Positions 1 to 20,342 of a DNA stretch of 21,679 bases are shown here, piece after piece. The notes below the pieces were generated by a model. The model worked only from the letters and a program-made list of their open reading frames with translations, did no database searches and was not told the DNA's origin. Numbering within the stretch: the first letter of the stretch is position 1; the number at the start of each line of letters is the position of its first letter. Made by a program: the position numbers and the translations under genes. The stretch spans positions 1 to 21,679 of the IMG/VR virus record IMGVR_UViG_3300036770_008274; one strand, 5' to 3'. This DNA is from a virus.

Positions 1-324
1 GAACCATCTGTTCCGCTTGTTCCTGATGAACCATCTGTTCCGCTTGTTCCTGACGAACCATCTGTTCCTGAAGTTCCAGAAGAACCATCTGTCCCGCTTG
101 TTCCTGATGAACCATCTGTTCCGCTTGTTCCTGATGAACCATCTGTTCCGCTTGTTCCTGACGAACCATCTATTCCTGAAGTTCCTGATGAACCATCTGT
201 CCCGCTTGTTCCTGAAGAACCATCTGTTCCGCTTGTTCCTGATGAACCATCTGTTCCGCTTGTTCCTGACGAACCATCTGTTCCTGAAGTTCCAGAAGAA
301 CCATCTGTCCCGCTTGTTCCTGAA
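1..324 (-). repeat. Three tandem copies of a 108-bp higher-order repeat in the collagen-like gene
   Basis: The 27-bp unit (9 codons, Gly-X-Y three times) is arranged in blocks of four. The blocks start at 1, 109 and 217. Copies 1 and 3 differ only at their last base, and copy 2 differs from them at a few positions. Repeats closer to the gene start are more diverged. Confidence 0.85.
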
Positions 325-1349
325 GAACCATCTATACCGCTTGTGCCTGAGCTACCGTCTGTCCCTGAAGTTCCAGAAGAACCTGAACTACCATCAGTTC
401 CATCAACACCACTTATACCTGAGGTTCCAGAAGAACCATCAATTCCCGAAGTCCCACTTGAACCATCTGTCCCACTTGTTCCTGAAGAACCATCAACACC
501 CGAAGTCCCACTTGAACCATCTGTCCCACTTGTTCCTGAAGAACCATCAACACCCGAAGTCCCTGAAGAACCATCTATTCCTGAGGTTCCTGAAGACCCA
601 TCTGTTCCTGAGGTTCCTGAGGTTCCTGAAGACCCGTCAGTTCCAGACGTTCCTGATGAACCATCTGTTCCACTTGTTCCGCTTGACCCATCAATACCTG
701 AAGTTCCTGAACTACCATCAACACCACTTGTTCCACTTGAGCCATCGATACCTGAGGTTCCTGAAGACCCGTCAGTTCCAGATGTTCCTGATGAACCGTC
801 GGTTCCACTTAAACCAGATGTTCCTGATGAACCATCAGTTCCCGAAGTTCCTGATGACCCGTCGGTTCCGCTAGTTCCTGATGAACCATCTGTTCCACTT
901 GTTCCGCTTGACCCATCAATACCTGAAGTTCCTGAACTACCATCTGTTCCACTTGTTCCACTTGAACCATCAATACCCGAAGTTCCTGATGAACCGTCAG
1001 TTCCAGATGTTCCTGATGACCCGTCGGTTCCGCTAGTTCCTGATGAACCATCAATACCCGAAGTTCCTGATGAACCGTCAGTTCCAGATGTTCCTGAGCT
1101 ACCATCAGTTCCACTTGTTCCGCTTGAACCATCAACACCTGACGTTCCTGAAGACCCGTCAGTTCCATTTGTGCCCGAAGTTCCAGATGAACCACTAGTT
1201 CCTCCCGTAATAGAGGCTGTTAATGCTGAAAAAGTTATTTGTCCAGAGGTTCCTGATGTTCCTCCGCTGTAATCTGTTACTATATATAGTAAATCTTGAG
1301 GGGACGCTCCTGATACTATAGGTAAGTCGGTTATTCTAGTTGTTGCCAT
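1..1349 (-). CDS. Collagen-like Gly-X-Y repeat virion protein (3' end outside window)
   Basis: The frame is open from an ATG at 1349 down to base 1 with no stop, at least 449 codons, so the C-terminus lies outside the window. The N-terminus (MATTRITDLPIVSGASPQDL) resembles the non-repetitive start of phage tail-fibre and appendage proteins. After a short spacer, from about residue 64 on, glycine occupies every third position in triplets such as GTD, GSS, GTS, GID and GVD. This is a collagen-type pattern, but it is rich in Thr, Ser and Asp and lacks proline. Such phage proteins are thought to form trimeric fibrous stalks. It follows the Thr/Pro-repeat gene on the same strand and looks like the distal part of the same appendage module. 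The overlapping plus-strand proline-rich frame is an artefact of the repeat. Collagen-like composition is seen directly; the fibre role is inferred. Confidence 0.85.
   Translation of the reverse strand, partial: MATTRITDLPIVSGASPQDLLYIVTDYSGGTSGTSGQITFSALTASITGGTSGSSGTSGTNGTDGSSGTSGVDGSSGTSGTDGSSGTSGTDGSSGTSGIDGSSGTSGTDGSSGTSGTDGSSGTSGIDGSSGTSGTDGSSGTSGIDGSSGTSGTDGSSGTSGTDGSSGTSGTDGSSGTSGLSGTDGSSGTSGTDGSSGTSGIDGSSGTSGVDGSSGTSGIDGSSGTSGTDGSSGTSGTDGSSGTSGTSGTDGSSGTSGIDGSSGTSGVDGSSGTSGTDGSSGTSGVDGSSGTSGTDGSSGTSGIDGSSGTSGISGVDGTDGSSGSSGTSGTDGSSGTSGIDGSSGTSGTDGSSGTSGTDGSSGTSGTDGSSGTSGTDGSSGTSGTDGSSGTSGIDGSSGTSGTDGSSGTSGTDGSSGTSGTDGSSGTSGTDGSSGTSGTDGSSGTSGTDG
445..552 (-). repeat. 54-bp direct tandem repeat in the collagen-like gene
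   Basis: Two identical 54-bp copies (445-498 and 499-552), each equal to two 27-bp units, followed by the start of a third. They keep the reading frame and the Gly-X-Y register. Confidence 0.8.
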
Positions 1350-1390: not shown

Positions 1391-2587
1391 TTATGGGGCA
1401 TCTTGTTGTGCGATTATAGAATTACTATCCTGTGTAATTAATTCCAACCCATCTTGAGTGAGTAAAAATATCTCGAAAATAGCCGGAGTTTCTGTTGGAG
1501 TTGGTGTTATTGTAGGTGTGGGCGTTTCTGATGAAGTTGGAGTCAACGTAGGTGTTATCGTAGGTGTAACTGTTGAAGTTGGCGTAGGTGAAATTGAACA
1601 TCCATTAGGGTCTACTGATGTAACCAATCCTGAACCTCCTGTAACTTCATACCAAGCAATTCCGTTAGAATAATATCCATCAGCAACTGTAGTTGTTAAC
1701 GATGAATCGGTATATAATGTTTCTCCAATGTTCGGACCCGGTCCATCACCTGGTTGTCCATATACCGTGATTGGTGAAGTTGTAAAATTGTTACATGCTG
1801 TTTGAGGAATCGTTGAATCGAAACCTAAAACATACTCCCAATATGCTCTAGACGTAGTTGGAGTAATTGTAGGTGTTGGTGTCACTGTAGGAGTTGGTGT
1901 TTCAGTCTCGGTTACTGTCGGAGTTGGGGTCGGTGTTTCAGTTTCCGTAACGGTAGGTGTAGGAGTTTCAGTAGGAGTTTCTGTTACAGTAGGCGTAGGA
2001 GTCTCAGTAGGAGTTTCAGTTACTGTTGGAGTAGGGGTTGGGGTTTCTGTTTCAGTTACTGTCGGTGTTGGAGTCTCGGTTGGTGTTTCTGTTGTTGTCG
2101 GTGTTGGAGTCTCGGTTGGTGTTTCTGTTGTTGTCGGTGTTGGTGACGCTCCTGGTGTTCCTGTTGTTGTTGGTGTTGGCGTGTTTGTTGGTGTCTCGCT
2201 CGGAGTTATTGATATAGTCGGTGTTGGAGTAGGAGTTTCAGTCTCAGTTACGGTTGGAGTTGGTGTATTTGTTGGGGTTTCAGTTGGAGTGACTGATATC
2301 GTAGGAGTCGGCGTTGGCGTTTGTGATGTCGGAGTTGGTGTCGGTGTTGGTGTTATACATGGTCCAAGTTGGACTTCGACACCATCAATCATTTGAGTCC
2401 TTGTCTGTGCAGAATATATTGGTGTTGACCCTGTTGTATCAACATAGACGTTAAAAGGGCCAATAGCATTTGAATTGGAAGTGAGTCTTACAATATAAGT
2501 TGTGCAAGCGGTGACGGTAAGTTGTTGTTCAATTTCTGTGCCGCAACCAGGTGCTAAGTTTGTTACAATTATGGAGTATAATGACAT
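1391..2587 (-). CDS. Thr/Pro-repeat stalk protein with internal globular domain
   Basis: 398 residues in three kinds of segment. Residues 1-77 are a small beta-rich, Cys-containing N-terminal domain. Residues 78-245 are almost purely Thr-Pro/Thr-Glu repeats (TPTPTPTVTETPTETPTPT style), with a second short Thr-Pro linker at 333-368. Residues 248-331 form a compact aromatic-rich domain containing YWEYVLGF, LYTDSSL and GYYSNGIAWYE. The last 30 residues (369-398) contain LLTQDGLELITQDSN, a motif I recognise from phage tail-appendage proteins. Thr-Pro runs make extended, protease-resistant linkers, so a surface-exposed spacer carrying a binding domain is likely. It sits between the Cys-repeat protein and the collagen-like gene, in the probable host-contact module. 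No catalytic motif is seen. The start is the first ATG after the intergenic gap. Confidence 0.8.
   Translation of the reverse strand: MSLYSIIVTNLAPGCGTEIEQQLTVTACTTYIVRLTSNSNAIGPFNVYVDTTGSTPIYSAQTRTQMIDGVEVQLGPCITPTPTPTPTSQTPTPTPTISVTPTETPTNTPTPTVTETETPTPTPTISITPSETPTNTPTPTTTGTPGASPTPTTTETPTETPTPTTTETPTETPTPTVTETETPTPTPTVTETPTETPTPTVTETPTETPTPTVTETETPTPTPTVTETETPTPTVTPTPTITPTTSRAYWEYVLGFDSTIPQTACNNFTTSPITVYGQPGDGPGPNIGETLYTDSSLTTTVADGYYSNGIAWYEVTGGSGLVTSVDPNGCSISPTPTSTVTPTITPTLTPTSSETPTPTITPTPTETPAIFEIFLLTQDGLELITQDSNSIIAQQDAP
2061..2132 (-). repeat. 36-bp tandem direct repeat in the Thr/Pro coding region
   Basis: Two identical 36-bp copies (2061-2096 and 2097-2132) followed by a partial third. 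Each encodes 12 residues of the TTTETPTETPTP type. The rest of 1860-2360 is a more degenerate array of similar 6- to 12-codon units. Confidence 0.8.
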
Positions 2588-3008: not shown

Positions 3009-5156
3009 TTAACAATTTATATCGTAATTGATTATCAATTCTATAACTATTTTTTGACTTGTGATAGTCGTGTTGTTAGGGTCTGTAGAAATTGATAACT
3101 CGTTGTTTATTGGGTCAACCACAACATTCGAAATACCAGGTATTGTTAATAACAAAGTTTTTACGGTATCATACCATAGGTTGTCTGAAGGTGCTATGTT
3201 AAGTGTTGTTCCTGTGTAAAAAGATTGTTGATTTGAAAGTCCACCAGGTTCTGTAGAAACTTTCGCAGTGTAAACCGCACTTATCAAATCACAATTCGTA
3301 TTACCTTGTATTAAATCTTGATATCCATCATTTAACATTTGTAGTAAACCACACTGAGATTGAGATTGAACTGTCAAAGCTTCTGAACCCATCAAGTATG
3401 TTTGATATGAAACAAAATTAGCGTCACAAGATATGACCGAAGTTCTTTGATATGAACAAGCATTTGCATCCACGATTGTTAAAGTATATGTCCCCGCACT
3501 TAATCCCGAAACTGATATTTGCTGAGGGTTTCCTGTAACGTTATTTGACCAATTGAATGTAAATGGCGGAGTTCCTGAAGATATGAATGCTGTTAACACA
3601 CCTTCATTTCCTGTCCCACAACTTTCAGAGTAAAGTGAGAATGTTAATAGGGGTTGAGATGTAACTACAACTTGTTGAGTTTGAGTGCAACCTGTTGAAT
3701 CTGTTACTGTTATAGTATGTTGTCCTGCAGAAACATTTGAGAATGTTATTGCAGATAAAGAGGTGTCTAATATAATTTGGTCATCATCCAAAGAGAAGTC
3801 ATAAGGACCTGTTCCACCTGTTGTTCTGATAACCTGAACTGTTCCATTGTTTGCTCCACAAGTTGTTCCTGTAATTGATGTTGATATTGTGAATGTGTCT
3901 TGAGCAAAGATATATACTTCTTGGCTTGTTCCACAACCTGTTGCATCGGAAACAAATACTGTGTAAGTTCCTTCTTGTAATCCTGTGTAAACTTGTAAAG
4001 GTTGAGCCGATTGTGTGTTTAAAGTGTCACCATTTGGTTTAATTAACGTGTATGTATATGGTGTGCTACCTTGTGAAACCGCAACTGTGATTGAACCGTC
4101 GTTTGAAGAACAATTTGAATTGGTTGATGATATGTCAACTGATGCTATACTTTGCGGTGATTGTAAACTTGTTGTTACGTTTATATTACAGAGACCCGCG
4201 TCTGTAACCGAAACACTATATGTTCCTGAAGGAAGTGAACTTAAGGTAAATTGTTGAAGATAACTTACCTCAACGTTTCCTGTCGATGCAGAATAATAAT
4301 AAGGTGCTGTTCCTCCTGTTATATATAAAGTGAGTGAACCATCACTATTAAAACAGGTTGGTGTTGCTGCGGACCAATAACCAAAAGCCAATGGACTTAC
4401 TGTTGTTATTTCAGCAGATTTGCTGGTTTGACACCCATAAGCATCTGTTACTGTGCATGAATAAACTCCCGCTGTTAAACCTGTAAGAGTTGAACCTGTT
4501 GAAGTTCCTACACTCCAATTATACGTATAAGGTGGGGTTCCCGTAACTCCTGTAACAAATAACTTTCCATTAGTTTGATTCGAACCACAATTTGAATTTG
4601 GAACAACATAGAAACCAAAGTCTAATGGTGTTGAATTTTCAACAATAAAACTTTGAGTTCTTGCACTACATCCACCTAAATCAAATGCAATTAAATTATA
4701 AGTCCCCGCACTCAGGTTATCAAAAACAACATCTTGAACTGAAGTTGTTGCAGACTGTAACAAAGTATCACCCGAATCAACAAGATAAAATAATGTTGAA
4801 GAATAGTTTGAATTTGAAGAGCCTGTTACAGCTCCATTGAAAAAATTACAAGTTGTATTTTGAACTTGGGCAATTGATGCACAAACTCCATTAGATACAG
4901 GTATGTTTACAATAAACTGACTGTTTTGTGGGAGGGAACTATCATTTATTCTTACAGAATAAGTTCCACCAACTACTCCAAATTTTTCACAAAGACCTGC
5001 AGAATTTACACATGGTGAAAAATCTTGCCAATCAAATGAATAAGGAGGAGTTCCTCCACTTACGAAGATGGAAATAATACCCGAAGAAGTATTACTACAA
5101 TCTCCAGTAACGGATACTGAATAATTTAAAGGGTTAATATTTGGTGGTAATGCCAT
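3009..5156 (-). CDS. SprB-repeat adhesin-like virion protein
   Basis: About 715 residues. I place the start at MALPPNINPL (ATG at 5156, TGATG overlap with the upstream gene). ATGs at 5159 and 5174 are alternatives. It carries seven SprB-type repeats, with pattern Cys, a GS-rich strand, GGTPPYTYNW-like turn, L-x-GLSAGTYTVTVTD and a closing GC. They lie near residues 18-85, 95-170, 190-245, 265-325, 350-410, 430-490 and 510-570. SprB repeats are known from Bacteroidota cell-surface adhesins linked to gliding. In a phage they probably form a rod-like binding fibre. Residues 622-715 match the C-terminus of the preceding 994-residue protein, with identical 94-residue spacing between boundary cysteines. 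Repeat identification is from sequence pattern; the adhesin role is inferred. Confidence 0.82.
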   Translation of the reverse strand: MALPPNINPLNYSVSVTGDCSNTSSGIISIFVSGGTPPYSFDWQDFSPCVNSAGLCEKFGVVGGTYSVRINDSSLPQNSQFIVNIPVSNGVCASIAQVQNTTCNFFNGAVTGSSNSNYSSTLFYLVDSGDTLLQSATTSVQDVVFDNLSAGTYNLIAFDLGGCSARTQSFIVENSTPLDFGFYVVPNSNCGSNQTNGKLFVTGVTGTPPYTYNWSVGTSTGSTLTGLTAGVYSCTVTDAYGCQTSKSAEITTVSPLAFGYWSAATPTCFNSDGSLTLYITGGTAPYYYSASTGNVEVSYLQQFTLSSLPSGTYSVSVTDAGLCNINVTTSLQSPQSIASVDISSTNSNCSSNDGSITVAVSQGSTPYTYTLIKPNGDTLNTQSAQPLQVYTGLQEGTYTVFVSDATGCGTSQEVYIFAQDTFTISTSITGTTCGANNGTVQVIRTTGGTGPYDFSLDDDQIILDTSLSAITFSNVSAGQHTITVTDSTGCTQTQQVVVTSQPLLTFSLYSESCGTGNEGVLTAFISSGTPPFTFNWSNNVTGNPQQISVSGLSAGTYTLTIVDANACSYQRTSVISCDANFVSYQTYLMGSEALTVQSQSQCGLLQMLNDGYQDLIQGNTNCDLISAVYTAKVSTEPGGLSNQQSFYTGTTLNIAPSDNLWYDTVKTLLLTIPGISNVVVDPINNELSISTDPNNTTITSQKIVIELIINYDINC

Positions 5157-8140
5157 CATGATACTGTCGTGCAATTAATTGTGAATGAAATTCCCGCGTT
5201 TAGACTGATTACTTCATCAATATAAATAGGTGTAGCGGTCATACTCATAATTTTTATTATATTACCCTGAATGAAAAAAGTATACCCATAATTGTATAAA
5301 TTAGGAAGATACTGTAACAAAGCATTTCTCCACTCGGTTGCTGTTGGCACATCTGTATTACCATATCCTGTAAAGAATGGTTCTTGGATAATTGTGTTAG
5401 AACCGATTTTTAAATCAACATACCAAGTCGAAACAACAGAATTCAAATCACATTGGGTTGATAACAATCCTTGACTTGTAAAGTAGTTTGATAAGACCTT
5501 ATTCAATATCGCCTCGAAACTTGATACTTGAACGTCCCCATTAAGCCATGGATATATTGAAAAATCCACAAATTCGGAGGCACAATCGGTAGGAAATATT
5601 TCAGCATCCAATGAACAAGGTAATTTCGGAACAGGAACAAATTGACAACCTCTTTGTCTTCTATAAACAAATTTTTGTCTATGGAAAATTGAGTTTTCGT
5701 ATTTAACTCCACCCATCCAAATTGTAGTTGCAGGAATCATTTGTTCAATCAACTTTGTCCAATAAGGTCCTAAGTTCTCAACATAATCAATTAGTTTTTG
5801 ATATGTGTATTTGTTGTTTGGAATACCAACAGTTTGTTCTGATTCCAAATATTTCCAAAAGATTGATTGTAATACAGGATATCCTCCTGTCTTACCATCA
5901 GTGATATATTGTCTGTTTCTAACATTAATCATGTTCTCCCAAAACGTTTGTGAAAATTCGAAAAACGTTTTCTTCTTTGGCTCTGGATTTATAAAAGTCC
6001 AATCGACACCACCAGGAACAGGATATCCTACCGTTAACCCTGATTCAGGAATAGGGTAATCATATTCAACTGATTCTCTCCAAACGTCATACACAAAACC
6101 TTGTGCGGGATTCAAGAATAAATCCACATTCTTTACGTTAAGAACTAACTTCTCATTAGAAACATAATAATATGCATTATAATCACCTTGTGTTGAAACC
6201 CTAATCTTCTCGTCATCTGATAACCATGATTTGTTGTTATCTACAACCTTTCTCAACTTGAACCCTTCGGTCATATATGGAAAATCAGTATATCTGTCAA
6301 GATATGGTTGTCCATAAGTGAATGGTTGTAACTGAGTTTGAATATTATAATTCTGTCCTGTAAACACGTTTCCTGTTACTTGAACTTCGTCAGGACTTCT
6401 GTGTTGTGGGGTTGTTTCATACCAACCAGAACCTATTTGGAAGAAATATGTTTCTGTGTCTCTTGGAGCTTTAGGATATCCTTCAGCATCAATTGGATAT
6501 TCATTTCTTAATATTCTTGCAGTTTGGTATGTTGTTGTTGAGGTATATGCACTGAACGTCTGTCCTTTAATTTTGAAGGTTGTATTAGGTAGATATGATG
6601 GAGTTTGTTCAACATACGTTCCACCAGAGATTTGAGCCCACTGAGTATCAAATCTTTCTAAATCTATTCTTTGGTCAGCCAAGTAAATGTGTTCATTATA
6701 TTCAATCAAAGAATCAGGTGCTCCAATCAATCTAAGAAGAAATTCAACAGACCTTCTTGTTCCTTTTGATTTGAAAAGATATGCAGCATTTAAAATTAAA
6801 TTTCTATAGTAGGCGTAGTTTAATTCTGTTGGGGTTAACGCTCTTGCATAACCAGGATAGTTTGTATTACTTTGATTTCCAAAAACAGAAGTTAAGAAGT
6901 CTTCTTCAGTTATTGGAGAAAAGTTTGATTGCCAACCTAATGTTTGAGATAAGTTAACCAATAACTGAGATGGTATGTCATTTCCAACATTATAGTTAAC
7001 AGAGTTCATGTATCCCAACGTGTCGATGAACTGTTTTACTTGGTCAAAACTTCTTCCATATATTTGGAATATTTTTTCAACTTTTTGTCCAAGAGTATCA
7101 AACTCTTTTAAGGAATCAGTCACCAAAAATCTTGAAATCAAATTCGTTTTGAATGAATCAAGATTGACAGCAATTTCTTGAAGTTGTTCAAGGTATTGGT
7201 CGAAAGATATTCCACGAATATTCAAATTCCAAGGACCTTCTTTTGGCCAAGTAACTTGTGTAAACTGAGTATAATATTGTCCCGCTTCGTTTTGTTGTGG
7301 GACTTGGAAAAACGCAGTATATTCAGGAACTATAAGCCTATTCAATAAGAATTTCTCAACCTCATCAAAGTTTTCTGAAAAACTTTTATCAACAATGTAA
7401 TCACTAGGTCTTATTGTAAAATTGTCTTCGAATGTTGTGGCTGTTGTTCCAAAAGGCGCACCCGAAACATAAAATTCAATGTATCCTGAAGTAAGTGAAT
7501 CTGATGGATTAAAAGAAACCACGGGATATGACCTACCACTAAGATTTATGACATAATCAAGATATGTTTCAGTCAAGTTTCTGAGTGGTGATACAGTAAT
7601 TTCTCTTAAAGATAAGTTCGTTGACGCACTTATAGTGTAATCAATACCAAACGGATTGAATATTCTATCGAGGTTTACTCTGAAAAATGTTTCATCTTCT
7701 AAAGCACTATATGATATGTTAACCGCAGTTTCTCCTGTTAAGAAGTTTTCTGTTTCATATTGAACATCAAGTGAAGCTGGGAAATAGTTGATAATCTTAG
7801 TTATGGAAACACTGAATCTTTTGGAAAGTGAACCATACATTGTAAAGTTAAGAACTTGAGACACGTCATAGTTCGGATAAACTTGGAATTGTGTCGCTTG
7901 TATTCTCCTACTTTCAGTTAAATCATCAATACCTAACCCCTCCAAACTAATAAGTTCAGAAAACGCACCTACATTAAAGAATCTGTTAACCTTTTCAGTA
8001 ACTACAGTATTAAAGTCAAATGTTCCGAGCGTGAGACCCCCTCCATTAACTGTTTGTAATCCAACAATGTTATCGGAAAATGTCCCCGCACCATTACCTG
8101 GTCTCGGAGGGTAAAAATATTTGCTTCTTGATGTTGCCAT
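5156..8140 (-). CDS. Large tail/baseplate protein, tail-protein-I-like core with shared C-terminal cassette
   Basis: 994 residues starting MATSRSKYFYPPRP; the ATG overlaps the upstream stop as TAATG. The central part has long helical stretches (about 315-480) ending in LFKSKGTRRSVEFLLRLIGA at 455-474, which resembles the motif of phage tail protein I (P2 gpI family), a baseplate component joining wedge and fibres. The region 790-830 contains QMIPATTIWMGGVKYEN and HRQKFVYRR, a pattern I associate with large tail proteins of Bacteroidota phages. Residues 897-990 form a Cys-bounded cassette repeated in the next gene. It is translationally linked to neighbours on both sides. A structural virion role is well supported; equating it with gpI is tentative. 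Confidence 0.78.
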   Translation of the reverse strand: MATSRSKYFYPPRPGNGAGTFSDNIVGLQTVNGGGLTLGTFDFNTVVTEKVNRFFNVGAFSELISLEGLGIDDLTESRRIQATQFQVYPNYDVSQVLNFTMYGSLSKRFSVSITKIINYFPASLDVQYETENFLTGETAVNISYSALEDETFFRVNLDRIFNPFGIDYTISASTNLSLREITVSPLRNLTETYLDYVINLSGRSYPVVSFNPSDSLTSGYIEFYVSGAPFGTTATTFEDNFTIRPSDYIVDKSFSENFDEVEKFLLNRLIVPEYTAFFQVPQQNEAGQYYTQFTQVTWPKEGPWNLNIRGISFDQYLEQLQEIAVNLDSFKTNLISRFLVTDSLKEFDTLGQKVEKIFQIYGRSFDQVKQFIDTLGYMNSVNYNVGNDIPSQLLVNLSQTLGWQSNFSPITEEDFLTSVFGNQSNTNYPGYARALTPTELNYAYYRNLILNAAYLFKSKGTRRSVEFLLRLIGAPDSLIEYNEHIYLADQRIDLERFDTQWAQISGGTYVEQTPSYLPNTTFKIKGQTFSAYTSTTTYQTARILRNEYPIDAEGYPKAPRDTETYFFQIGSGWYETTPQHRSPDEVQVTGNVFTGQNYNIQTQLQPFTYGQPYLDRYTDFPYMTEGFKLRKVVDNNKSWLSDDEKIRVSTQGDYNAYYYVSNEKLVLNVKNVDLFLNPAQGFVYDVWRESVEYDYPIPESGLTVGYPVPGGVDWTFINPEPKKKTFFEFSQTFWENMINVRNRQYITDGKTGGYPVLQSIFWKYLESEQTVGIPNNKYTYQKLIDYVENLGPYWTKLIEQMIPATTIWMGGVKYENSIFHRQKFVYRRQRGCQFVPVPKLPCSLDAEIFPTDCASEFVDFSIYPWLNGDVQVSSFEAILNKVLSNYFTSQGLLSTQCDLNSVVSTWYVDLKIGSNTIIQEPFFTGYGNTDVPTATEWRNALLQYLPNLYNYGYTFFIQGNIIKIMSMTATPIYIDEVISLNAGISFTINCTTVS

Positions 8141-10960: not shown

Positions 10961-12647
10961 CGATAAGTGGTTTTTCTGGGTAAGCAATACCAAGGAGATT
11001 TCCATTGAAATTGGAACCTTCAGGTATTAATCTAAATATTATCCCACGATATGGGTAGTGGGCACTGTTTAAGAATGGATAGTCAACTCCTCTCCCTAAG
11101 TTATCAACGAATCCATAAGTATATAGGTCTCTCCATCTGAACTGTTGGTCAGCATTCGAAAAGAAACAATATGATGGAACATTTTCAACCTGTCCAACAT
11201 TGCCTGTTTCAATGTAATCAGAGAATGTTCTGAGTGTCATACTATTATGTGGTTCATAATAATAACCTGGAGCATTAGTATCAGGAAACTGAGTGGTTGA
11301 AAATATATTTTGATTAAACTTAATCTTTTGGATATATGGCGAAATAACTCTTTCAAGTTGTTCATAGTCATTCCATTCACAAAAATCACCATCCATAATA
11401 TCATCCTTCTTTAGGTCTCCGTTATAATAGAAAGTTTTGGTAACTCCGTTCGTTTTGGTATAAGATGATAATGGAACCGTTGTGTTCGATTCAACAAAAC
11501 TTTGGTCCCAATAAAAGTTTGGTGATGATGATAAATTAAACTTCCACCCTTGTTTCAATCCAACACCATTTGATGGTTCATTAAACCAACCTGTGTAACC
11601 TTTAAAAACAATCGTTAAGAATATTTCAGAAAGAGGTCTTTTTTGATTATCAGTAACTCCACTAAAATTGAAGTCAATTGCAGATGAGACGTTATAAGCA
11701 TTACTACTTGTCTTTTGACTGATTCTTGTAACGTTGTTTGGGGTCAGTGAACTTAACTCAAGTTTTTTCTCTTCGTTGAAAACATTCTTTTCAAACCCTG
11801 ATTTAGTTATTATTAGGTCGTCTAAGTTAGTAATGATTTTATGTTTTCTCACATAATATTTCGATGTTGTTTCCAATAAATTGTCAGGATTAAGAACCCT
11901 CTTAAAAGTTCCAACTTTACCATTTAAAAATGTGTTTCCTGTAAATCCATTATTGAAAATATTAAAAATATATGGTTGACTATCAAATGTATCATTACCT
12001 AAGGAGTATACTTCAAAAACATCATTCTGTTTATAACTGAAAGATAATTGAACAAACTCTCCAATAGCTAGTCCATGAGGTGCAACACATTCAAACCTGA
12101 TAACTCTACTACCATTTGATTGAGCATTACTAATTGTAAATGGAATACCATTTTTAGCAATCCAACTATTTTGACTTGATAGTGTTGTATACAACTTTTT
12201 ATTTTCGTCATTTTCAAATGCATAAGAAACATAGTATGTCCAATTATATGTGTAGGCACTTTTTGCTTTATAATCCAAATGTTGGTCACTTATGTTCGGT
12301 CTGTAAAAATCAAATTCATAGTATTGTGGATATCCTTTCCACACCCCATTTTGTATTGATGCGTCTGCACCTACATAAAATAAGTTATTTTTGAAAGGAA
12401 TATATTCAGTTGTTCCAGTTACAACATTACCATACAAATAAGTTATTTTGAATGTAGGTCTGAAAATAGTGCAACCTTGTCTTTCACTATCAAAGACTTC
12501 CGCTAAACTGATTGTAGAACTTCTATCGTATTCAGTAATTTCCTGTTGTTTTTGCTCCAAAGTTATAGATACTTCTTGGTCATTTGCAGGAGCCGACTTA
12601 TACTCTTGTGAACTTGGTATGAGTGTAAACTTATTCATTTCTTCCAT
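10947..12647 (-). CDS. Virion/tail structural protein with PHGL motif
   Basis: 566 residues from the ATG at 12647. A second in-frame ATG at 12638 (MNKFTLIPSS) is equally possible and has GGAAGAA just before it. Both overlap the end of the 1768-residue gene. Residues 187-200 (CVAPHGLAIGEFVQ) match the APHGL-x-x-G-(D/E) motif that recurs in phage tail and baseplate beta domains. The rest is aromatic-rich beta-type sequence with repeated mentions of YY and FY pairs and no membrane segment. No close family is recognised. Gene position two steps after the gp6-like gene suggests a baseplate wedge or arm protein, comparable in location to the gp7/gp8 region of T4, but sequence homology to those was not evident to me. 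Confidence 0.77.
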   Translation of the reverse strand: MEEMNKFTLIPSSQEYKSAPANDQEVSITLEQKQQEITEYDRSSTISLAEVFDSERQGCTIFRPTFKITYLYGNVVTGTTEYIPFKNNLFYVGADASIQNGVWKGYPQYYEFDFYRPNISDQHLDYKAKSAYTYNWTYYVSYAFENDENKKLYTTLSSQNSWIAKNGIPFTISNAQSNGSRVIRFECVAPHGLAIGEFVQLSFSYKQNDVFEVYSLGNDTFDSQPYIFNIFNNGFTGNTFLNGKVGTFKRVLNPDNLLETTSKYYVRKHKIITNLDDLIITKSGFEKNVFNEEKKLELSSLTPNNVTRISQKTSSNAYNVSSAIDFNFSGVTDNQKRPLSEIFLTIVFKGYTGWFNEPSNGVGLKQGWKFNLSSSPNFYWDQSFVESNTTVPLSSYTKTNGVTKTFYYNGDLKKDDIMDGDFCEWNDYEQLERVISPYIQKIKFNQNIFSTTQFPDTNAPGYYYEPHNSMTLRTFSDYIETGNVGQVENVPSYCFFSNADQQFRWRDLYTYGFVDNLGRGVDYPFLNSAHYPYRGIIFRLIPEGSNFNGNLLGIAYPEKPLIDGCE

Positions 12648-15600
12648 ACTTAGTTTTGAATTTATCCAAAGCGGTTTCTCCTTTGATTAATCCAAAGTAA
12701 AAATGATATGGTGCACCTACTAAAAACTTACTACTTTGAGACATGGTAAATGTATCGTAAGTCATGTTCTGTGGTGTGCTTGTGTTTGTTACGCTGAATA
12801 TATATCCTCTTTGAAATATATCGTATGCAGTATTGTTACCATAATAATAGTTAGGAGTTGCAACTCTTCTTCTACTTACAGCCTGATAAGGATATTCTGT
12901 AATATCACCAATGGTCGTTGCCCAGTTGTTTCTTTCACTTCCGAAGATATTAGAAACACCACCTTGTCTAAGACTCCATTGATAGAAAGGAACTAATTGT
13001 GATTTTATTCCAAATTCATATGTTACGGCAGTTTGATTTGGGTCAGGTCTGAAGTCTATAATTCCAGGTGATATATAATCTTTGTCTTGTAAATTGGAAG
13101 TTGTAGATGAGAAAAATATTCCCATTGTTGGATTACCTGGGGTTCCAATTACTCTAACTGGGTCAGTGATACTTCCTGTTGAAGGATAAAATTCTGGTGA
13201 AAACGGTATCACACCAAACTCAGAATTTATTGACATCATTTGAGCTAAATCGGCATCAATTCTTTGTCTCGGTAAAGTTGATAAACCAGTTCCATATCTG
13301 TTGAATAATTGGTTAAGAGAATTGTCACCAAGTGGTATTAATTGTTGTAAAAACTTTTCATCAGTAATTCTACTAATCACAAATAGGTTTACAATGTCTG
13401 AGGTGTCTGAATAACTTGTTGGATTTAAATTACTCATTACATAAGATGCCGTTGATGGTTCGAAAGTTATTTCATCATAAAATGAATCTTTCATACCCAA
13501 ATTGATAATTGTCGTTGGGAATAAAAGATTTCTGTTATTGACTGGGTTCAAATCATCTGTAGTTGGTCTTCCTATAAATGGATTTGATATTGATGTTGGT
13601 ATATATGGTGAACTTCTGAAATAGAAATTGTTCGTTTCTGAATCGAAGTAAATCAACTTTTTTGGGAATACAGGCGGTTCAGGTTTATTCTGACCATTAA
13701 AGTATCTGTCCACTTGAATTGGGAACATGAATAACGAACCGTTTACCCAGTTGTTTGTAAATGTTTGTGCTAAAACACCTCTACATAAAGCATAGAAGAA
13801 TCTATATCTGAATCCCCACTCTGCAAATGTTTTAAAATCTTTACCATTAAATAAATCCGTTAATGGTTTTCTTACCATTACGTAACATCCATTATCAATA
13901 GCATCACTAGCCTCACAACCTAATTCAATTCCGAAATTTGTTCCATCACCAGAGTAACAAGTCAATCCAACCATTCTATCACAATCATTAAGTGACGCTA
14001 AAACGTTACCCGCAGCATATTGTCCTTCAATATCCGCAGTAATTGTCTCAGCACCTTGACTAAAAGTTATACCCGCCACTCCGTCTCCAGAAGTCAAGTT
14101 ATACACTTGAAACCCTAAATTTTGTTGCAATAAAGACACACTTCCGTTCCAATTACCTCCGTTATCAGCATAATCTGATGAAGGTAATCTATCCGTTCTC
14201 ATAACAGTTTGAGCAGTTGTAATACTCAAAGGACTTGCACTAAATGTCGGAAGTAAAGATGGACTAAAATAAAGTTGTTCTGTTGATGCGTCATACCTAG
14301 AATATGATGCCGACCTACAACGAACAAAAATGAACGATATGTTGTTAGTGAAAGCATAATTACCATCTAAAATCGCACCTCCTGATAAATCGTCTGAATT
14401 ATTATACTTTGTTTCTGTTGTTCCGATGAAGAATCCCGGAGGGTAAGGTGAAAAATTAGTATTACCCTGAACGAACATATTATTAAGTTTACTAATTACA
14501 CCCCCATTTGATGTTGTATCTATATAATTGTTAGAATAGTAAGAATTACCTAATGCGGTGATGGAGCTAGTGTTACTATCAAGAGCCCCATAAAAACCTA
14601 CAAGTGGAGTTGAAAATCCACTGAACGTCAAACCTGGTGTGCTCACAGGAGGGTTAATCGGTCTAAAGAAATTAGACTGATAAAATATGTTACTCTGAAC
14701 GTTGTGTTGTTGAACTGTTGTTGTAGAACCCGCTGGTAGTTTTTGTATTGGCACGTTTATTCTTGTTGATGCAGTTACAACCACGTCGTCTTCATTAGTG
14801 TATCCCAAGATTCTACCAATACCATATTTGTTAACATATTGTGGCGAATATGGGTCAACACCTCTTTGTAAAATAAGAACTTTCTGTGTTTCGAATTCAT
14901 TTAAATAAGTCGCATTCAACTTTTCATAATACATTGCCGGTGGAATAGTGGCAGTTGTTGGATTCGTTCCCCAAAAATCGTTCCTACATTTATCAAAAGT
15001 AATAATTGTTGAAGGTTGAATTAATTGATTCCAAAAACTTGGATTTGCAGTAATACCATCAGAGTTGACTGGTGCTAAGTTTGGTAAAGAATATACAGGA
15101 GAATTATTGATAATTGTTTTGGTCACTGTAATCGCAGTAATAACTTGATAGTATTCAATATCCATCGGGTAGTCATATCCTCTACATTCATCCCCATATC
15201 CTGTAACAGTATAAGTTGCAAGTCCTCCTAATGAACTTAAATCAATACAATCAACATCCGTAATTGTATGAAGTCCAAGAGATTTAGTTGTTGCGCTTTT
15301 TGCACCATAACAAGTTTGATAGGAAACTTCACCAGCTTCAGTTACATTAATAGTTACACTTGTTACACAAGTAGGTGTAAGGCCTGTTGGTAACGTATAA
15401 TTCGTAGTGGCATCCGTTGTTTGAGATGTTGCATAATTAACCGTTATTGGTATTATTCCTGTTGGAACTTTTCCTGTAAGACCGTTAATTACTTTTCCTC
15501 CCATTGTCGTTCCCGTCCATCTGTAGTTAGGGTCTTGGGACAAAGCAGGATTCACAAAAGTTATTAAATCACCAGGACTATAATCACCAGATGTTAATAC

Positions 15601-17937
15601 TGTTAGAGTATTATCATAATGAAACCCTTGGTTTTGGTCGGCAGCAAAAGTCACTTTTATCTTGTTTGTATTATCGAAAAACTTTGACCTGAGATTATAA
15701 ATGTTTATTCTCTCACCAATTGGTAAGTCTAAACTAAGTCCAATCATTTCACTTTGACTATCACCATTCGCTCTTCCGAATATTTGTGAACGAGTTGTAT
15801 GATAAATTTTAGGATTCTTAGCGCTTCCTGGCACACCTGATAACGCCTGTCCATTAGCACTAGCAACAGTATTTAAAATACTGTCATAATTTTCATCACT
15901 TTGATTCGTAATATTTGTTATTTGTGGTCTCGTTGCTAAATAACCTTCTATGGTTTGAAGATATGATTCGGTTCCCGAAACTTGGGTCATTTGTGAAGGA
16001 ATTGGTGGCACGTCTTCTCTATTTGTTGTGACAGGTGTGATGTTACCGTTACTACACTGACAAGCCTGACAGTCGGGATATTGTATCATCGCCAATTTGA
16101 TAGGGTCGAAATTATAGGAAGTTAATTTATCAAAATTCTTAATTAAAGTCCTAAGTAGATATCCATAAAAACCTAATCTTAAAAAAATTGAACCTGCAGC
16201 TACAACCATATTCCAAGTAAATGGATTTCCAACCGATGCGGTAACAAAAGCATATCCTTCAATCCCAGTTTGGATTAATGCCCTTGTTACAAATCCAATC
16301 AAAATACCAATCACAACTACGGCAAAATTATTGTATAACCAAGCCACAAAGTGATAGAGGACCAATAATGGAATACCTATTATTTGTATGACTTGAAAAA
16401 TGATTGCAAACAGAAAATATAAAAAATCGAAGTTTCTAAACCCTTCATTTACAGGGAATTTATTAACAGAGTCCGCACACTCATTACTATCAATTTCTTT
16501 AATTCCAACAAACTTTCCTCTACCACCACTTTTATACTGGTCAATTAAAGCGGAGACTGTGTATACTCTGTTAAAACTGAATTGATAGAAAGTATCTTGA
16601 CAATCAATCATTTCATCCAATTTCTTAGTTCTTTGAGTTGTTGTAAACCCTTTTGTATATCCTGACCAATCTAATCCAAAGTAATATGAACTTGCTAATC
16701 TATCATTACCTCCTGTGAGATTTGGGTCCGAGGCGTTATTTGACCAACCATACTCTCTAACATTTGGGACCAAATAATATGGTCGTCTCGTTTGTTCTGA
16801 TAATTCGTTAGATTGTTGCCATTTAATTTTGAATCTATATTTTGCTTTAGTTGGAATACCAATCGTTGGGTCATTAGATAAAACTTTTTCCCCAAACTCA
16901 TTGGTAACGATGTAATCTAAGTTCATTGGTAATTCTGTCAACCATGAACCATTCCCATCAATGATATTTCCATTTTGTTCCAACCTATATTCTTCTAAAA
17001 TTGGATTCCCGTCAGAATCGATTTGTATTGTCTGTCTTATTGCCAGTATCTGTCCCGGTCCTGCTTGCAGTTGACATAAATTTCCAAAATTATCTCTTAG
17101 TTTTGCACTGAGTCCATCTCTCCCGCCCTTTATTCTAAGTGTGTCAGGTGTAGAATAAATTGACCCTATGAAAACAGATGTTGGTTGAATATCAACATTG
17201 GCGTCATCTCTTAAATCAAAATCCAATCTGTTGATGGCTATTTGACATATTGAAGGTTCTCCCCAAAGAGGTGAAATTTCAATCTGTTTATTTATTGAAA
17301 TAATTTGTGGTAATGAGTTTAAGTCCGTTGAGGTTCTGAAAGTATCACCAGCAACCTGAGCATCAGTTGCCAAACCTATCCTAATCAAATCTTGAGGTGT
17401 TAAAGAGAATTCACCTATGTCAGATAAATCCACATCCATCAAGATATTTTGAATACCAAGTGGAACACCCATAATCATGTAATCTCCACTCTCGTTTGTC
17501 TTTGCTGTGAGCTTATAATATTTGTCGTAAATGTCCACAACAGTTGTGGCAGTTAAAGCATCTATTCTTGATGGTAATGTTCCTGTGGCAGCATGTTTTG
17601 AATATGATTTCTCGTATGGAAGTAGGTTATATCTATAACCATCCTCATTTCTATCATCAACTGACCTATAAGGATAGATTGAGGTTATAATTGGATTTGA
17701 TTGGTCAACAACATCAATAGGAATAAAAACAGCAACTCGGGCATTAGGAACACCTAATCCATTATTGGCAGTAACTCTACCTACAAGAACACCATAATCA
17801 GAGCAAGCTCTAACGTATATGTCTTCTTGTTGAAGTTTGAGAGATAAAATCTCAAGAAATTCGAACTCTTGGTCTATTTGAACGTTTATCGTCTTGTTAA
17901 CACCGAGTTCGGTCCTAATCCTATACGATTGACCCAT
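12631..17937 (-). CDS. Giant baseplate-region protein with carboxypeptidase-regulatory-like domain and internal hydrophobic region
   Basis: 1768 residues, the largest gene here. Near the N-terminus, GRVTANNGLGVPNARVAVFI (53-72) and TNESGDYMIMGVPLG (147-161) bracket a carboxypeptidase-regulatory-like (CnaB-related) beta-sandwich. At 503-600 lies a strongly hydrophobic stretch of about three membrane-type segments (around 504-528, 530-552 and 575-597), then a cysteine cluster PDCQACQC at 621-628. The remaining 1100 residues look like large beta-rich virion domains ending LIKGETALDKFKTKYGRNE. It directly follows the gp6-like gene and is probably a wedge or tail-tip protein. The hydrophobic part could insert into the host envelope, as tape-measure segments do in other phages. 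Domains are read from sequence; the membrane role is inferred. No frameshift is seen. Confidence 0.8.
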   Translation of the reverse strand: MGQSYRIRTELGVNKTINVQIDQEFEFLEILSLKLQQEDIYVRACSDYGVLVGRVTANNGLGVPNARVAVFIPIDVVDQSNPIITSIYPYRSVDDRNEDGYRYNLLPYEKSYSKHAATGTLPSRIDALTATTVVDIYDKYYKLTAKTNESGDYMIMGVPLGIQNILMDVDLSDIGEFSLTPQDLIRIGLATDAQVAGDTFRTSTDLNSLPQIISINKQIEISPLWGEPSICQIAINRLDFDLRDDANVDIQPTSVFIGSIYSTPDTLRIKGGRDGLSAKLRDNFGNLCQLQAGPGQILAIRQTIQIDSDGNPILEEYRLEQNGNIIDGNGSWLTELPMNLDYIVTNEFGEKVLSNDPTIGIPTKAKYRFKIKWQQSNELSEQTRRPYYLVPNVREYGWSNNASDPNLTGGNDRLASSYYFGLDWSGYTKGFTTTQRTKKLDEMIDCQDTFYQFSFNRVYTVSALIDQYKSGGRGKFVGIKEIDSNECADSVNKFPVNEGFRNFDFLYFLFAIIFQVIQIIGIPLLVLYHFVAWLYNNFAVVVIGILIGFVTRALIQTGIEGYAFVTASVGNPFTWNMVVAAGSIFLRLGFYGYLLRTLIKNFDKLTSYNFDPIKLAMIQYPDCQACQCSNGNITPVTTNREDVPPIPSQMTQVSGTESYLQTIEGYLATRPQITNITNQSDENYDSILNTVASANGQALSGVPGSAKNPKIYHTTRSQIFGRANGDSQSEMIGLSLDLPIGERINIYNLRSKFFDNTNKIKVTFAADQNQGFHYDNTLTVLTSGDYSPGDLITFVNPALSQDPNYRWTGTTMGGKVINGLTGKVPTGIIPITVNYATSQTTDATTNYTLPTGLTPTCVTSVTINVTEAGEVSYQTCYGAKSATTKSLGLHTITDVDCIDLSSLGGLATYTVTGYGDECRGYDYPMDIEYYQVITAITVTKTIINNSPVYSLPNLAPVNSDGITANPSFWNQLIQPSTIITFDKCRNDFWGTNPTTATIPPAMYYEKLNATYLNEFETQKVLILQRGVDPYSPQYVNKYGIGRILGYTNEDDVVVTASTRINVPIQKLPAGSTTTVQQHNVQSNIFYQSNFFRPINPPVSTPGLTFSGFSTPLVGFYGALDSNTSSITALGNSYYSNNYIDTTSNGGVISKLNNMFVQGNTNFSPYPPGFFIGTTETKYNNSDDLSGGAILDGNYAFTNNISFIFVRCRSASYSRYDASTEQLYFSPSLLPTFSASPLSITTAQTVMRTDRLPSSDYADNGGNWNGSVSLLQQNLGFQVYNLTSGDGVAGITFSQGAETITADIEGQYAAGNVLASLNDCDRMVGLTCYSGDGTNFGIELGCEASDAIDNGCYVMVRKPLTDLFNGKDFKTFAEWGFRYRFFYALCRGVLAQTFTNNWVNGSLFMFPIQVDRYFNGQNKPEPPVFPKKLIYFDSETNNFYFRSSPYIPTSISNPFIGRPTTDDLNPVNNRNLLFPTTIINLGMKDSFYDEITFEPSTASYVMSNLNPTSYSDTSDIVNLFVISRITDEKFLQQLIPLGDNSLNQLFNRYGTGLSTLPRQRIDADLAQMMSINSEFGVIPFSPEFYPSTGSITDPVRVIGTPGNPTMGIFFSSTTSNLQDKDYISPGIIDFRPDPNQTAVTYEFGIKSQLVPFYQWSLRQGGVSNIFGSERNNWATTIGDITEYPYQAVSRRRVATPNYYYGNNTAYDIFQRGYIFSVTNTSTPQNMTYDTFTMSQSSKFLVGAPYHFYFGLIKGETALDKFKTKYGRNE

Positions 17938-17949
17938 TAAGATGTTTAG

Positions 17950-17958
17950 TTATAAATA
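17950..17958 (-). promoter_or_regulatory. Candidate phage promoter element TATTTATAA before the 1768-aa gene
   Basis: It lies in the 87-base gap 17938-18024, 12 bases before the ATG at 17937, with the same sequence and spacing as at 9061-9069 and a similar AACTAAA stretch around it. No Shine-Dalgarno sequence follows. Function is inferred from recurrence. Confidence 0.45.
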
Positions 17959-17960
17959 GT

Positions 17961-17990
17961 TAATGTGAATTTTTTTGGGAACACACATTA
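17961..17990. other. Imperfect inverted repeat in the 17938-18024 gap
   Basis: A 7-bp stem (TAATGTG at 17961-17967 with CACATTA at 17984-17990) encloses a 16-base loop containing a T-run. It lies just upstream of the TATTTATAA element. It is AT-rich and not followed by a U-tract on the transcribed strand, so it is at best a weak hairpin or operator-like site. Confidence 0.25.
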
Positions 17991-18024
17991 GAATTATAAC
18001 TCAATAATGAAATAAATAAACCTG

Positions 18025-19863
18025 TTAAGATAATGTTACTGTTTGGAAATTCTTCACAGATACTCTGATATCTTTATTAGGGTATCTTATTTGATAGACT
18101 TGGTTTGGTTGTGCAAAAATTGTATCATCAACAGGACCAATTGCCTTTGTTTCAGGGTTAGAATATACCATTGATGTTTCAGCAGATGAATATTGTCCTC
18201 CAACCTCATTGAACACGTCAACACTTGTTACAGTCAATACCCCATTTGAATTTTGTATTATACTCTTTAATTCTGATAGATATACGTTCTGACCAAGTTG
18301 TCTTGTCTGTGGGTTAAAGTAAGCAGAAACTTTATCAATAACATCAGAGATGACCTGTCCTGAGTTTTGTGCCGAGTCTAATACGATTGAAACATCAACA
18401 CTCAAATCAATAACTTCAGCACTTAAGATTGAAATATAGTCGTTCATCATTCTGTAGTTAGAAAGATAATTTGCAATATTTTGTCTTAAGGTATTTGACA
18501 CGATACTTGTTAACTTTCCTGATGTGTCATATGATAATATTTGAATCAAAATTTTATTATCATTTTCAGTTATGGATACCTTAGCAGGAGCACCATATTG
18601 CGATGGCATGTTTCTCAATATTGACTCATAGTCTTGAACTGTTACCGCTCTTTTCTGTGCTGCGAAGTTGAACGAGACATAGTTTCTAATTTCTTCTAAA
18701 GAAGGAATACCCGCCCCACCAATAGCAGCAGTTACGTTATTACATCTCAGAGAGTTTACCACAGCTGAGTTTGTGTTCTCAGAAGGACCATTAACGAAGA
18801 AAGTAACTGTTCCAACTTGGTTGATAATATTTGTTCCTAAGTTTGTTGCTAAACCACCCCCAACTCTATATTGAACGAACAGTGTTGAGTTAGGTGTCAG
18901 AGCAGAACCTAATGAAAGGTTATTTGAATATTTTTGTAAATCCAAGGTCGCACCAATTGTTGTAAATTGGTCTAAAGCATCTTGGGCTGTGTTTGTTCCA
19001 CCACCAAAAGTCATTTTCTTAAATCCCTCAGGGGTAAACTCTGTGATGAATCTATTTTGTGTTTGAATATATCTTCCAACTTTGATACCCGGTTGGTCTG
19101 ATACTTTCGTTGGGTCTTCAACAAATACTCTATCTTCGGCTAAAGCATCGACTTCATACCATCTGTTCTCTAAACCTAAGAATTCTGCGGTTGTTGGAAC
19201 GTTCGTATATTGTGTTCCGTTTTTCAACAACACACTTGTGATACCTAATACGTTCTTTTCGGGTAAGAATAATTCAAAGAAAGGTTTTACATCGTTTGGT
19301 GTAATAACTCTTTTGAATACTTTTGTAATACCATTAACAACAACTTCTCTTTTTGTTATTGTGTAGTTGATAAGAACTCCGTTTGCATTGAAATTTGGTA
19401 TTTTGAGTCTATTAGGGAATCCCTCTGAGTTGTATGGTGATGCAAAATCTATATCGTTCACATTTTCGAAAACGATACCGGCACCAACTACTTGAGACCC
19501 TCTAATTAATGTTCCCAAATATCTTTCATCTTCTTTATCTCCGAACGCAGGAACTGTAACTGAAAAATCTACTAATGCAACAGATGGTCTTTGTCCAGGA
19601 ATTTTTAATCCATAAGTTCTGGCAATGTTATAGATTGATGATTTTTGTTGTGCATATTGAAGAACAGTCTCTTGGATACTTCTATCAATCTGATAGTTAA
19701 GGTTATCCGCAATCGCCGCATTCAAATCAATGAAAACCGAAAATACCGATGCATCGTTAAAATCCTGAATTAACTCAGGATAATACGTTCTAACGTAGTT
19801 GAGAAGTTCGGTTCTTACTGCCTGATAATCTCTTGTTGTGTATGATATTTTACGGTTTGCCAT
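18025..19863 (-). CDS. Baseplate wedge protein, T4 gp6-like (baseplate J family)
   Basis: 612 residues, close to the roughly 660 of T4 gp6. The N-terminal region (TTRDYQAVRTELLNYVRTYY at 9-28, then FNDASVFSVFIDLNAAIADN and NYQIDRSIQETVLQYA) is typical of the baseplate J/gp6 family. So is the conserved core near 392-440 (IRNYVSFNFAAQKRAVTVQD, 392-411, followed by YESIL and a KVSITEND strand). gp6 forms dimers that make the inner ring of the contractile-tail baseplate and joins neighbouring wedges. It starts 5 bases after the gp25-like stop, reproducing the 25-6 gene order of T4-like phages. TATTTAAGA precedes its start by 3 bases. I am confident of the family assignment and moderately confident of functional equivalence. 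Confidence 0.9.
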   Translation of the reverse strand: MANRKISYTTRDYQAVRTELLNYVRTYYPELIQDFNDASVFSVFIDLNAAIADNLNYQIDRSIQETVLQYAQQKSSIYNIARTYGLKIPGQRPSVALVDFSVTVPAFGDKEDERYLGTLIRGSQVVGAGIVFENVNDIDFASPYNSEGFPNRLKIPNFNANGVLINYTITKREVVVNGITKVFKRVITPNDVKPFFELFLPEKNVLGITSVLLKNGTQYTNVPTTAEFLGLENRWYEVDALAEDRVFVEDPTKVSDQPGIKVGRYIQTQNRFITEFTPEGFKKMTFGGGTNTAQDALDQFTTIGATLDLQKYSNNLSLGSALTPNSTLFVQYRVGGGLATNLGTNIINQVGTVTFFVNGPSENTNSAVVNSLRCNNVTAAIGGAGIPSLEEIRNYVSFNFAAQKRAVTVQDYESILRNMPSQYGAPAKVSITENDNKILIQILSYDTSGKLTSIVSNTLRQNIANYLSNYRMMNDYISILSAEVIDLSVDVSIVLDSAQNSGQVISDVIDKVSAYFNPQTRQLGQNVYLSELKSIIQNSNGVLTVTSVDVFNEVGGQYSSAETSMVYSNPETKAIGPVDDTIFAQPNQVYQIRYPNKDIRVSVKNFQTVTLS

Positions 19864-19868
19864 CTATC

Positions 19869-20342
19869 TTAAATATTGATAATTATAAAATCACTCTCAC
19901 TAAATGTTTGTGAATTTGTTGCATAATCTATTTTGATTTTTGCAGTGTAATCTGCGGTTCCCTTACCAGGTAATCTATAAATGTCATACATTTTAGCATC
20001 ACCAACTGTTACAGTATTTGTTTGAGTATCTGACTCATTTGCGGGGTCTGCAGGTTCTATGGTTATTTTATTAACTAATAGATTTGGCATGTATCTTTGG
20101 ATAGAATCCCTAATGTCAGCCTCAATAGCACTAAACGTTAATCCGTCAAAAGGTTCAAATACGAATTCATAAAGTCTTGTTCCAAAATCAGGAAGATAAT
20201 ATCTTGAACCTTTTCTTGTTAACAATAAATGAATTAGGTCAGCCCTAACTTCTTGTCTTTGAAATTCGGTTAGTTGTAAATAATCCCCTTTCGTTGAATC
20301 CTGAAATGGGAAATTTAATCCATATGTAACTCCATCTGCCAT
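19869..20342 (-). CDS. Baseplate wedge protein, T4 gp25-like
   Basis: 157 residues, the usual size for gp25-like proteins. Residues 22-100 contain the family hallmarks: RADLIHLLLTRKGSRYYLPD (33-52), then FGTRLYEFVFEPFD and a following helix (SAIEADIRDSIQRYMPN). gp25 is the lysozyme-fold-like wedge component found in all contractile injection systems. It docks on gp6 and helps start sheath assembly. The next gene is gp6-like, as expected. Residues 95-157 extend past the core with an Asp/Thr-rich loop. The start has no Shine-Dalgarno sequence, but TATTTATCA lies 3 bases upstream of the ATG. Confidence 0.92.
   Translation of the reverse strand: MADGVTYGLNFPFQDSTKGDYLQLTEFQRQEVRADLIHLLLTRKGSRYYLPDFGTRLYEFVFEPFDGLTFSAIEADIRDSIQRYMPNLLVNKITIEPADPANESDTQTNTVTVGDAKMYDIYRLPGKGTADYTAKIKIDYATNSQTFSESDFIIINI

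Follow-up and report, generated by a model that had tools for sequence, protein, structure and literature searches.

The window, that is, the whole stretch of DNA analysed here, is a 21.7-kb virus record (IMG/VR IMGVR_UViG_3300036770_008274). All of its main genes run along the minus strand. Read in that direction, a ribonucleotide reductase fragment is followed by a gp25-like gene, a gp6-like gene and the gene for a very large protein, P0001. A first-pass annotation had already placed this giant protein right after gp6-like, and Pfam and PHROG matches identify the two genes directly upstream accordingly:

19869 to 20342, minus strand: gp25-like baseplate wedge gene (Pfam GPW_gp25, 3.6e-13).
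18025 to 19863, minus strand: gp6-like baseplate wedge gene, directly upstream of P0001 (Pfam Baseplate_J, 5.9e-7; phrog_219 baseplate wedge, 1.5e-25).
12631 to 17937, minus strand: P0001 gene, an open frame (stop included) for a baseplate-operon protein of 1768 aa.

P0001 is followed by proteins of 566, 282, 361, 302, 994, 721, 111 and 398 aa and then by an open collagen-like repeat protein. The arrangement is a stable one. In every one of 151 loci the P0001 gene comes right after gp6, separated from it by 74-101 bp. The 566-aa gene lies downstream in 120 of these loci, usually with an overlap of a few bases. The gap itself (17938-18024 in the window) is AT-rich with TATTTATA and near-constant in length across the 151 loci; a promoter or leader may sit there. 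At the far end of the window, the 398-aa protein (1391-2587, minus strand) contains long TPTPTVTETPTETP repeats and is possibly a stalk or fibre. The open-ended protein beyond it (3-1349, minus strand) carries long GTDGSSGTSG collagen-like repeats and runs off the contig.

Relatives of P0001 are encoded in more than 580 IMG/VR stretches, and extra scans using divergent members reached relatives down to about 35% identity. Their N-terminal 500 residues are strongly conserved (entropy 0.63 bits). Searches of family and structure libraries did not turn up this family: P0001 has no match in Pfam or PHROGs, no homologue in the PDB by profile or in GTDB genomes, and no Foldseek match at E <= 0.001 with its AlphaFold models. 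A tblastn search of isolate phages with two family members returned nothing.

The AlphaFold models are useful mainly for helices, with a mean pLDDT of 43 for residues 1-760 and 38 for residues 700-1768. The first-pass annotation had described the protein as otherwise made of soluble beta domains, a description that models this poor outside the helices do not bear out. One N-terminal stretch gives a hint of such a fold, offered as a suggestion only from the model:

17428 to 17805, minus strand: residues 45-170, possible CnaB/transthyretin-like or pilin-like beta fold (weak Foldseek matches to a low-confidence model, best E 0.013).

The most distinctive part of P0001 is a long hydrophobic region followed by a cysteine motif. 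Transmembrane segments were called with hydropathy scales, and Kyte-Doolittle (KD) values over 19 residues reach 2.58 (residues 509-527), 2.22 (538-556) and 1.58 (577-595). Elsewhere in the protein no such peak exceeds 1.2.

16138 to 16431, minus strand: hydrophobic block, residues 503-600 (mean KD 1.33 over 98 aa).

In a protein of this length a single 19-residue peak is weak evidence, since shuffled sequences reach 1.87 on average and 25 of 2000 shuffles reach 2.58. A lone peak is therefore unremarkable, and what carries weight is how long the block is and how well it is conserved. The mean over 98 residues was not equalled in any of 5000 shuffles, whose maximum was 1.11, so that the hydrophobic region claimed earlier for residues 503-600 holds. 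Conservation was assessed in 141 distinct sequences covering the region, which are metagenomic and of which only identical regions were merged before counting. In all 141, the 19-residue peak reaches 2.05 or more and PxCxxCxC lies behind it. The block and its conservation are not due to chance. A frame or assembly artefact can be ruled out as the source of the block, because all relatives keep it.

The block consists of a constant and a variable part:

16330 to 16425, minus strand: first helix, residues 505-536, about 32 residues, uncharged and universal, with a polar stripe of Y507, Q515, Q518, H529 and N536 (hydropathy moment; modelled helix).
16138 to 16326, minus strand: second part, residues 538-600, one or two more predicted hydrophobic helices, varying in sequence and length and short in many relatives (entropy; model).

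The first helix is amphipathic, with a hydropathy moment at a best period of 100 degrees per residue (permutation p = 0.001); a moment calculated from conservation on this helix is not significant (p 0.11). Within the stripe, 128 of the 141 relatives retain Q518 and 122 retain H529, and N536 was also counted as conserved. The second part behaves differently. In the family alignment, entropy averages 2.33 bits over its hydrophobic columns (residues 537-603), whereas hydrophobic columns average 0.53 across the N-terminal 500 residues and 1.10 across the C-terminal part. Hydrophobicity is thus retained although the residues change, as would be expected of residues facing lipid and not of residues in a core.

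The first-pass annotation counted about three segments. This fits the three peaks of the window's own protein and does not extend to the family, in which hydropathy gives one segment in 27 relatives, two in 41, three in 59 and four in 14. In a quick tree built from the N-terminal 500 residues and read with an arbitrary length cut-off for short and long blocks, the block changes form 16 times, and at least 9 of these changes are forced by well-supported branches. From the segment counts and the repeated changes in length it follows that the constant element is one helix plus the cysteine motif, the remainder being optional. In the AlphaFold model of residues 1-760, helices at 505-568 and 575-600 are the best-modelled part (local pLDDT mostly 67-86).

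The membrane-type character proposed for the segment is well supported. It is hydrophobic in all relatives, its second half drifts in sequence yet stays hydrophobic, unlike the hydrophobic core of the rest of the protein, long helices are modelled in it and almost no charge is found across some 100 residues (median charged fraction 0.049 among the 141 relatives). The further steps proposed with it, that P0001 belongs to the virion, is deployed at infection and opens a pore, may also apply.

The cysteine cluster noted earlier as PDCQACQC lies at residues 621-628, behind the hydrophobic segments as described. Other conserved cysteines precede the block:

16054 to 16080, minus strand: YPDCQACQC, residues 620-628, with the motif PxCxxCxC (141 of 141 distinct relatives).
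16477 to 16479, minus strand: Cys487, invariant, shortly before the hydrophobic block (141 of 141).
16600 to 16602, minus strand: Cys446, near-invariant, further upstream (138 of 141).

Beyond the cluster, ten cysteines are invariant or nearly so. Cys 45, 231, 288 and 487, like 623, 626 and 628 of the motif, are invariant among the relatives spanning those positions, and Cys1319, 1327, 1341, 1351 and 1385 vary little or not at all. Metal binding or disulfide formation is a candidate role for CxxCxC.

The position of P0001 recalls gp7 of phage T4. That gene, too, lies directly after gp6 and codes for a large, cysteine-containing protein with one hydrophobic stretch of 19 residues (L161 7061-10159; residues 886-904, KD 2.07). 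The stretch corrects the earlier statement that T4 baseplate wedge proteins are not known to have such segments. In the GenBank record of gp7 a "predicted integral membrane domain" is noted at the C-terminus, and the protein is nonetheless part of solved baseplate structures; hydropathy alone cannot exclude burial. The T4 stretch is, however, far shorter, with means of 1.31 over 35 residues and 0.3 over 60 compared with 2.05 and 1.7 in P0001, and no CxxCxC stands behind it. Profile similarity is also missing: hhalign of a 57-sequence P0001 family alignment against T4 gp7 gave a probability of 0.1%, on which the identification with gp7 was rejected. On present evidence from sequence comparison, naming P0001 gp7 appears to be wrong.

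T4-type capsid and terminase genes are present in the genomes of P0001 relatives. By gp6, capsid and terminase, the nearest isolates are Microcystis phage Mel-JY01 and Flavobacterium phage immuto, together with the uncultured LR756508. Their large proteins after gp6 measure 1265-1400 aa, do not contain such a hydrophobic block and are not related to P0001 (profile probability 0.1%). Their homologue lies further down the window:

5156 to 8140, minus strand: 994-aa protein, homologous by profile comparison (E 1.9e-7 and 7.4e-7) to the large protein behind gp6 in Mel-JY01, immuto and LR756508.

Because this protein matches that family instead, P0001 was rejected as the counterpart of immuto gp109. 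Among the 848 ORFs of 80 loci of the immuto type, a sister clade, none matches the P0001 family. These two results together mark P0001 as a clade-specific addition. P2 gpI was considered as a relative of the 994-aa protein and set aside; the KGT motif looks alike by eye and the comparison is not significant.

Immediately upstream of gp25-gp6, immuto-type phages encode a helical protein containing Ala-rich hydrophobic stretches (L154 10030-11142; L171 5862-6851; L223 4483-6429). It is annotated as RecN-like in immuto and may be a tail or pilot protein. A hydrophobic protein of the immuto gp115 type was rejected as a stand-in in P0001 phages: the available flanks of the P0001 loci, which often end near gp25, contain no homologue.

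The gp25-gp6-P0001 operon order suggests that P0001 is present in the virion. A hydrophobic segment and a cysteine cluster kept by every relative examined suggest in turn that the tail may insert one of its parts into a bacterial membrane. The reading favoured here, a tentative one that falls somewhat short of an even chance, is that P0001 is a tail or baseplate protein whose hydrophobic helix is shielded at first and enters the host membrane when the baseplate docks. P0001 would be a structural protein added beside gp6 in one T4-like clade, holding helix 505-536 and the optional hydrophobic part inside the particle. Docking and rearrangement of the baseplate would present the helix to the host membrane, which it would then enter. 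Helices from several copies could pack by way of their conserved polar stripes, to anchor the tail or to line a passage, while CxxCxC, Cys446 and Cys487 might fix the base of the helix by binding metal or forming disulfides. An extended version, on balance unlikely, would have P0001 copies of 1500-1850 residues form a ring around the baseplate and deploy their polar-striped helices at docking, giving a membrane ring or pore separate from the central spike.

Entry of a tail-borne segment into the host membrane at docking is proposed by analogy with phi29 gp9 and T7 gp14. In the phi29 tail knob protein gp9, an internal hydrophobic L-loop is described as coming out during infection and building a barrel of helices, a membrane-penetrating pore (PMC6542822). 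The likeness is an internal hydrophobic stretch in a tail protein, P0001 being placed in the tail by its operon. Phi29 differs as a short-tailed phage of a Gram-positive host, and its L-loop is much less hydrophobic than the P0001 block (peak KD 1.29) and shows no Cys motif. No relation between gp9 and P0001 was found in PHROGs or in the searched phage collection, which included phi29. T7 gp14 has a variable number of predicted transmembrane helices and is reported to insert in the host outer membrane (PMC8954989). Proteins of the gp14/gp16 type thus resemble P0001, with its 1 to 4 segments, in that helix number varies among relatives; they differ in being internal virion proteins of short-tailed phages encoded outside a baseplate operon, and no sequence relation was found.

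Several observations count against entry into the host membrane. The number of segments is odd in some relatives and even in others, a change that would be resisted if the membrane topology were fixed; sister phages manage without P0001; a contractile tail already owns a spike for membrane puncture; and T4 gp7 combines a predicted membrane stretch with a place in a solved, soluble baseplate. The last of these leads to a somewhat unlikely alternative, in which the helices stay out of contact with lipid, packed within the baseplate against one another or against gp6 and its neighbours. Over 19 residues the gp7 stretch is similarly hydrophobic, a conserved polar stripe and invariant cysteines would suit a packed bundle too, and helix number varies among relatives regardless of parity. 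The gp7 stretch is short by comparison with the P0001 block, however, and a second part that stays hydrophobic despite sequence drift is the opposite of a buried core. The near-absence of charge along the block also speaks against burial.

The helix might instead meet lipid in the producing cell, where it would tie a baseplate or tail under assembly to the host's inner membrane and play no part in penetration. In the thylakoid-anchored contractile injection system of Anabaena, the machine stays in the membrane through a helix of Cis13, and deleting that helix frees the particles (PMC8894136), so a tail-fibre or baseplate component can bear a membrane anchor. P0001 has no apparent signal peptide and would be made in the cytoplasm, beside the inner membrane. 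Cis13 is, however, a small trimeric fibre-like protein that acts in the producing cell and does not belong to a phage, and its helix is C-terminal, whereas the P0001 block is internal to 1768 residues. Lytic particles also need release, so that the anchor would have to let go, and such tethering seems rather improbable. Least credible, and very improbable, is a membrane-associated chaperone or exclusion factor outside the virion whose gene happens to lie in the baseplate operon. In favour of such a factor, the searches gave P0001 no homologue with a known function, and we know of no virion proteomics for this clade. The constant position of the gene after gp6, at every locus seen, counts against it, as do the size of the protein and its strongly conserved N-terminal 500 residues, which are typical of tail structural proteins.

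Little is known of the contact between a contractile-tail baseplate and host envelope lipid; most attention goes to the spike and the tape measure. P0001, a protein confined to a widespread clade of uncultured phages, provides a defined segment to test, combining a universal membrane-type helix, its polar stripe and the invariant Cys motif.

The clade consists of T4-like phages that probably infect Bacteroidota, bacteria with a Gram-negative envelope of two membranes. The window's 721-aa protein (3009-5174, minus strand) contains six SprB repeats (Pfam, 8.6e-25) and is similar to PHROGs of Hoc-like head decoration. Shine-Dalgarno motifs precede the starts of 5% of 150 family ORFs; the corresponding shares are 53% for the T4 region and 0% for that of Flavobacterium phage immuto. 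The SprB repeats and the scarcity of these motifs both point to a Bacteroidota host. One family member (L350 7001-12184) sits on a viral contig of 317 kb, so the clade may include genomes of jumbo size.
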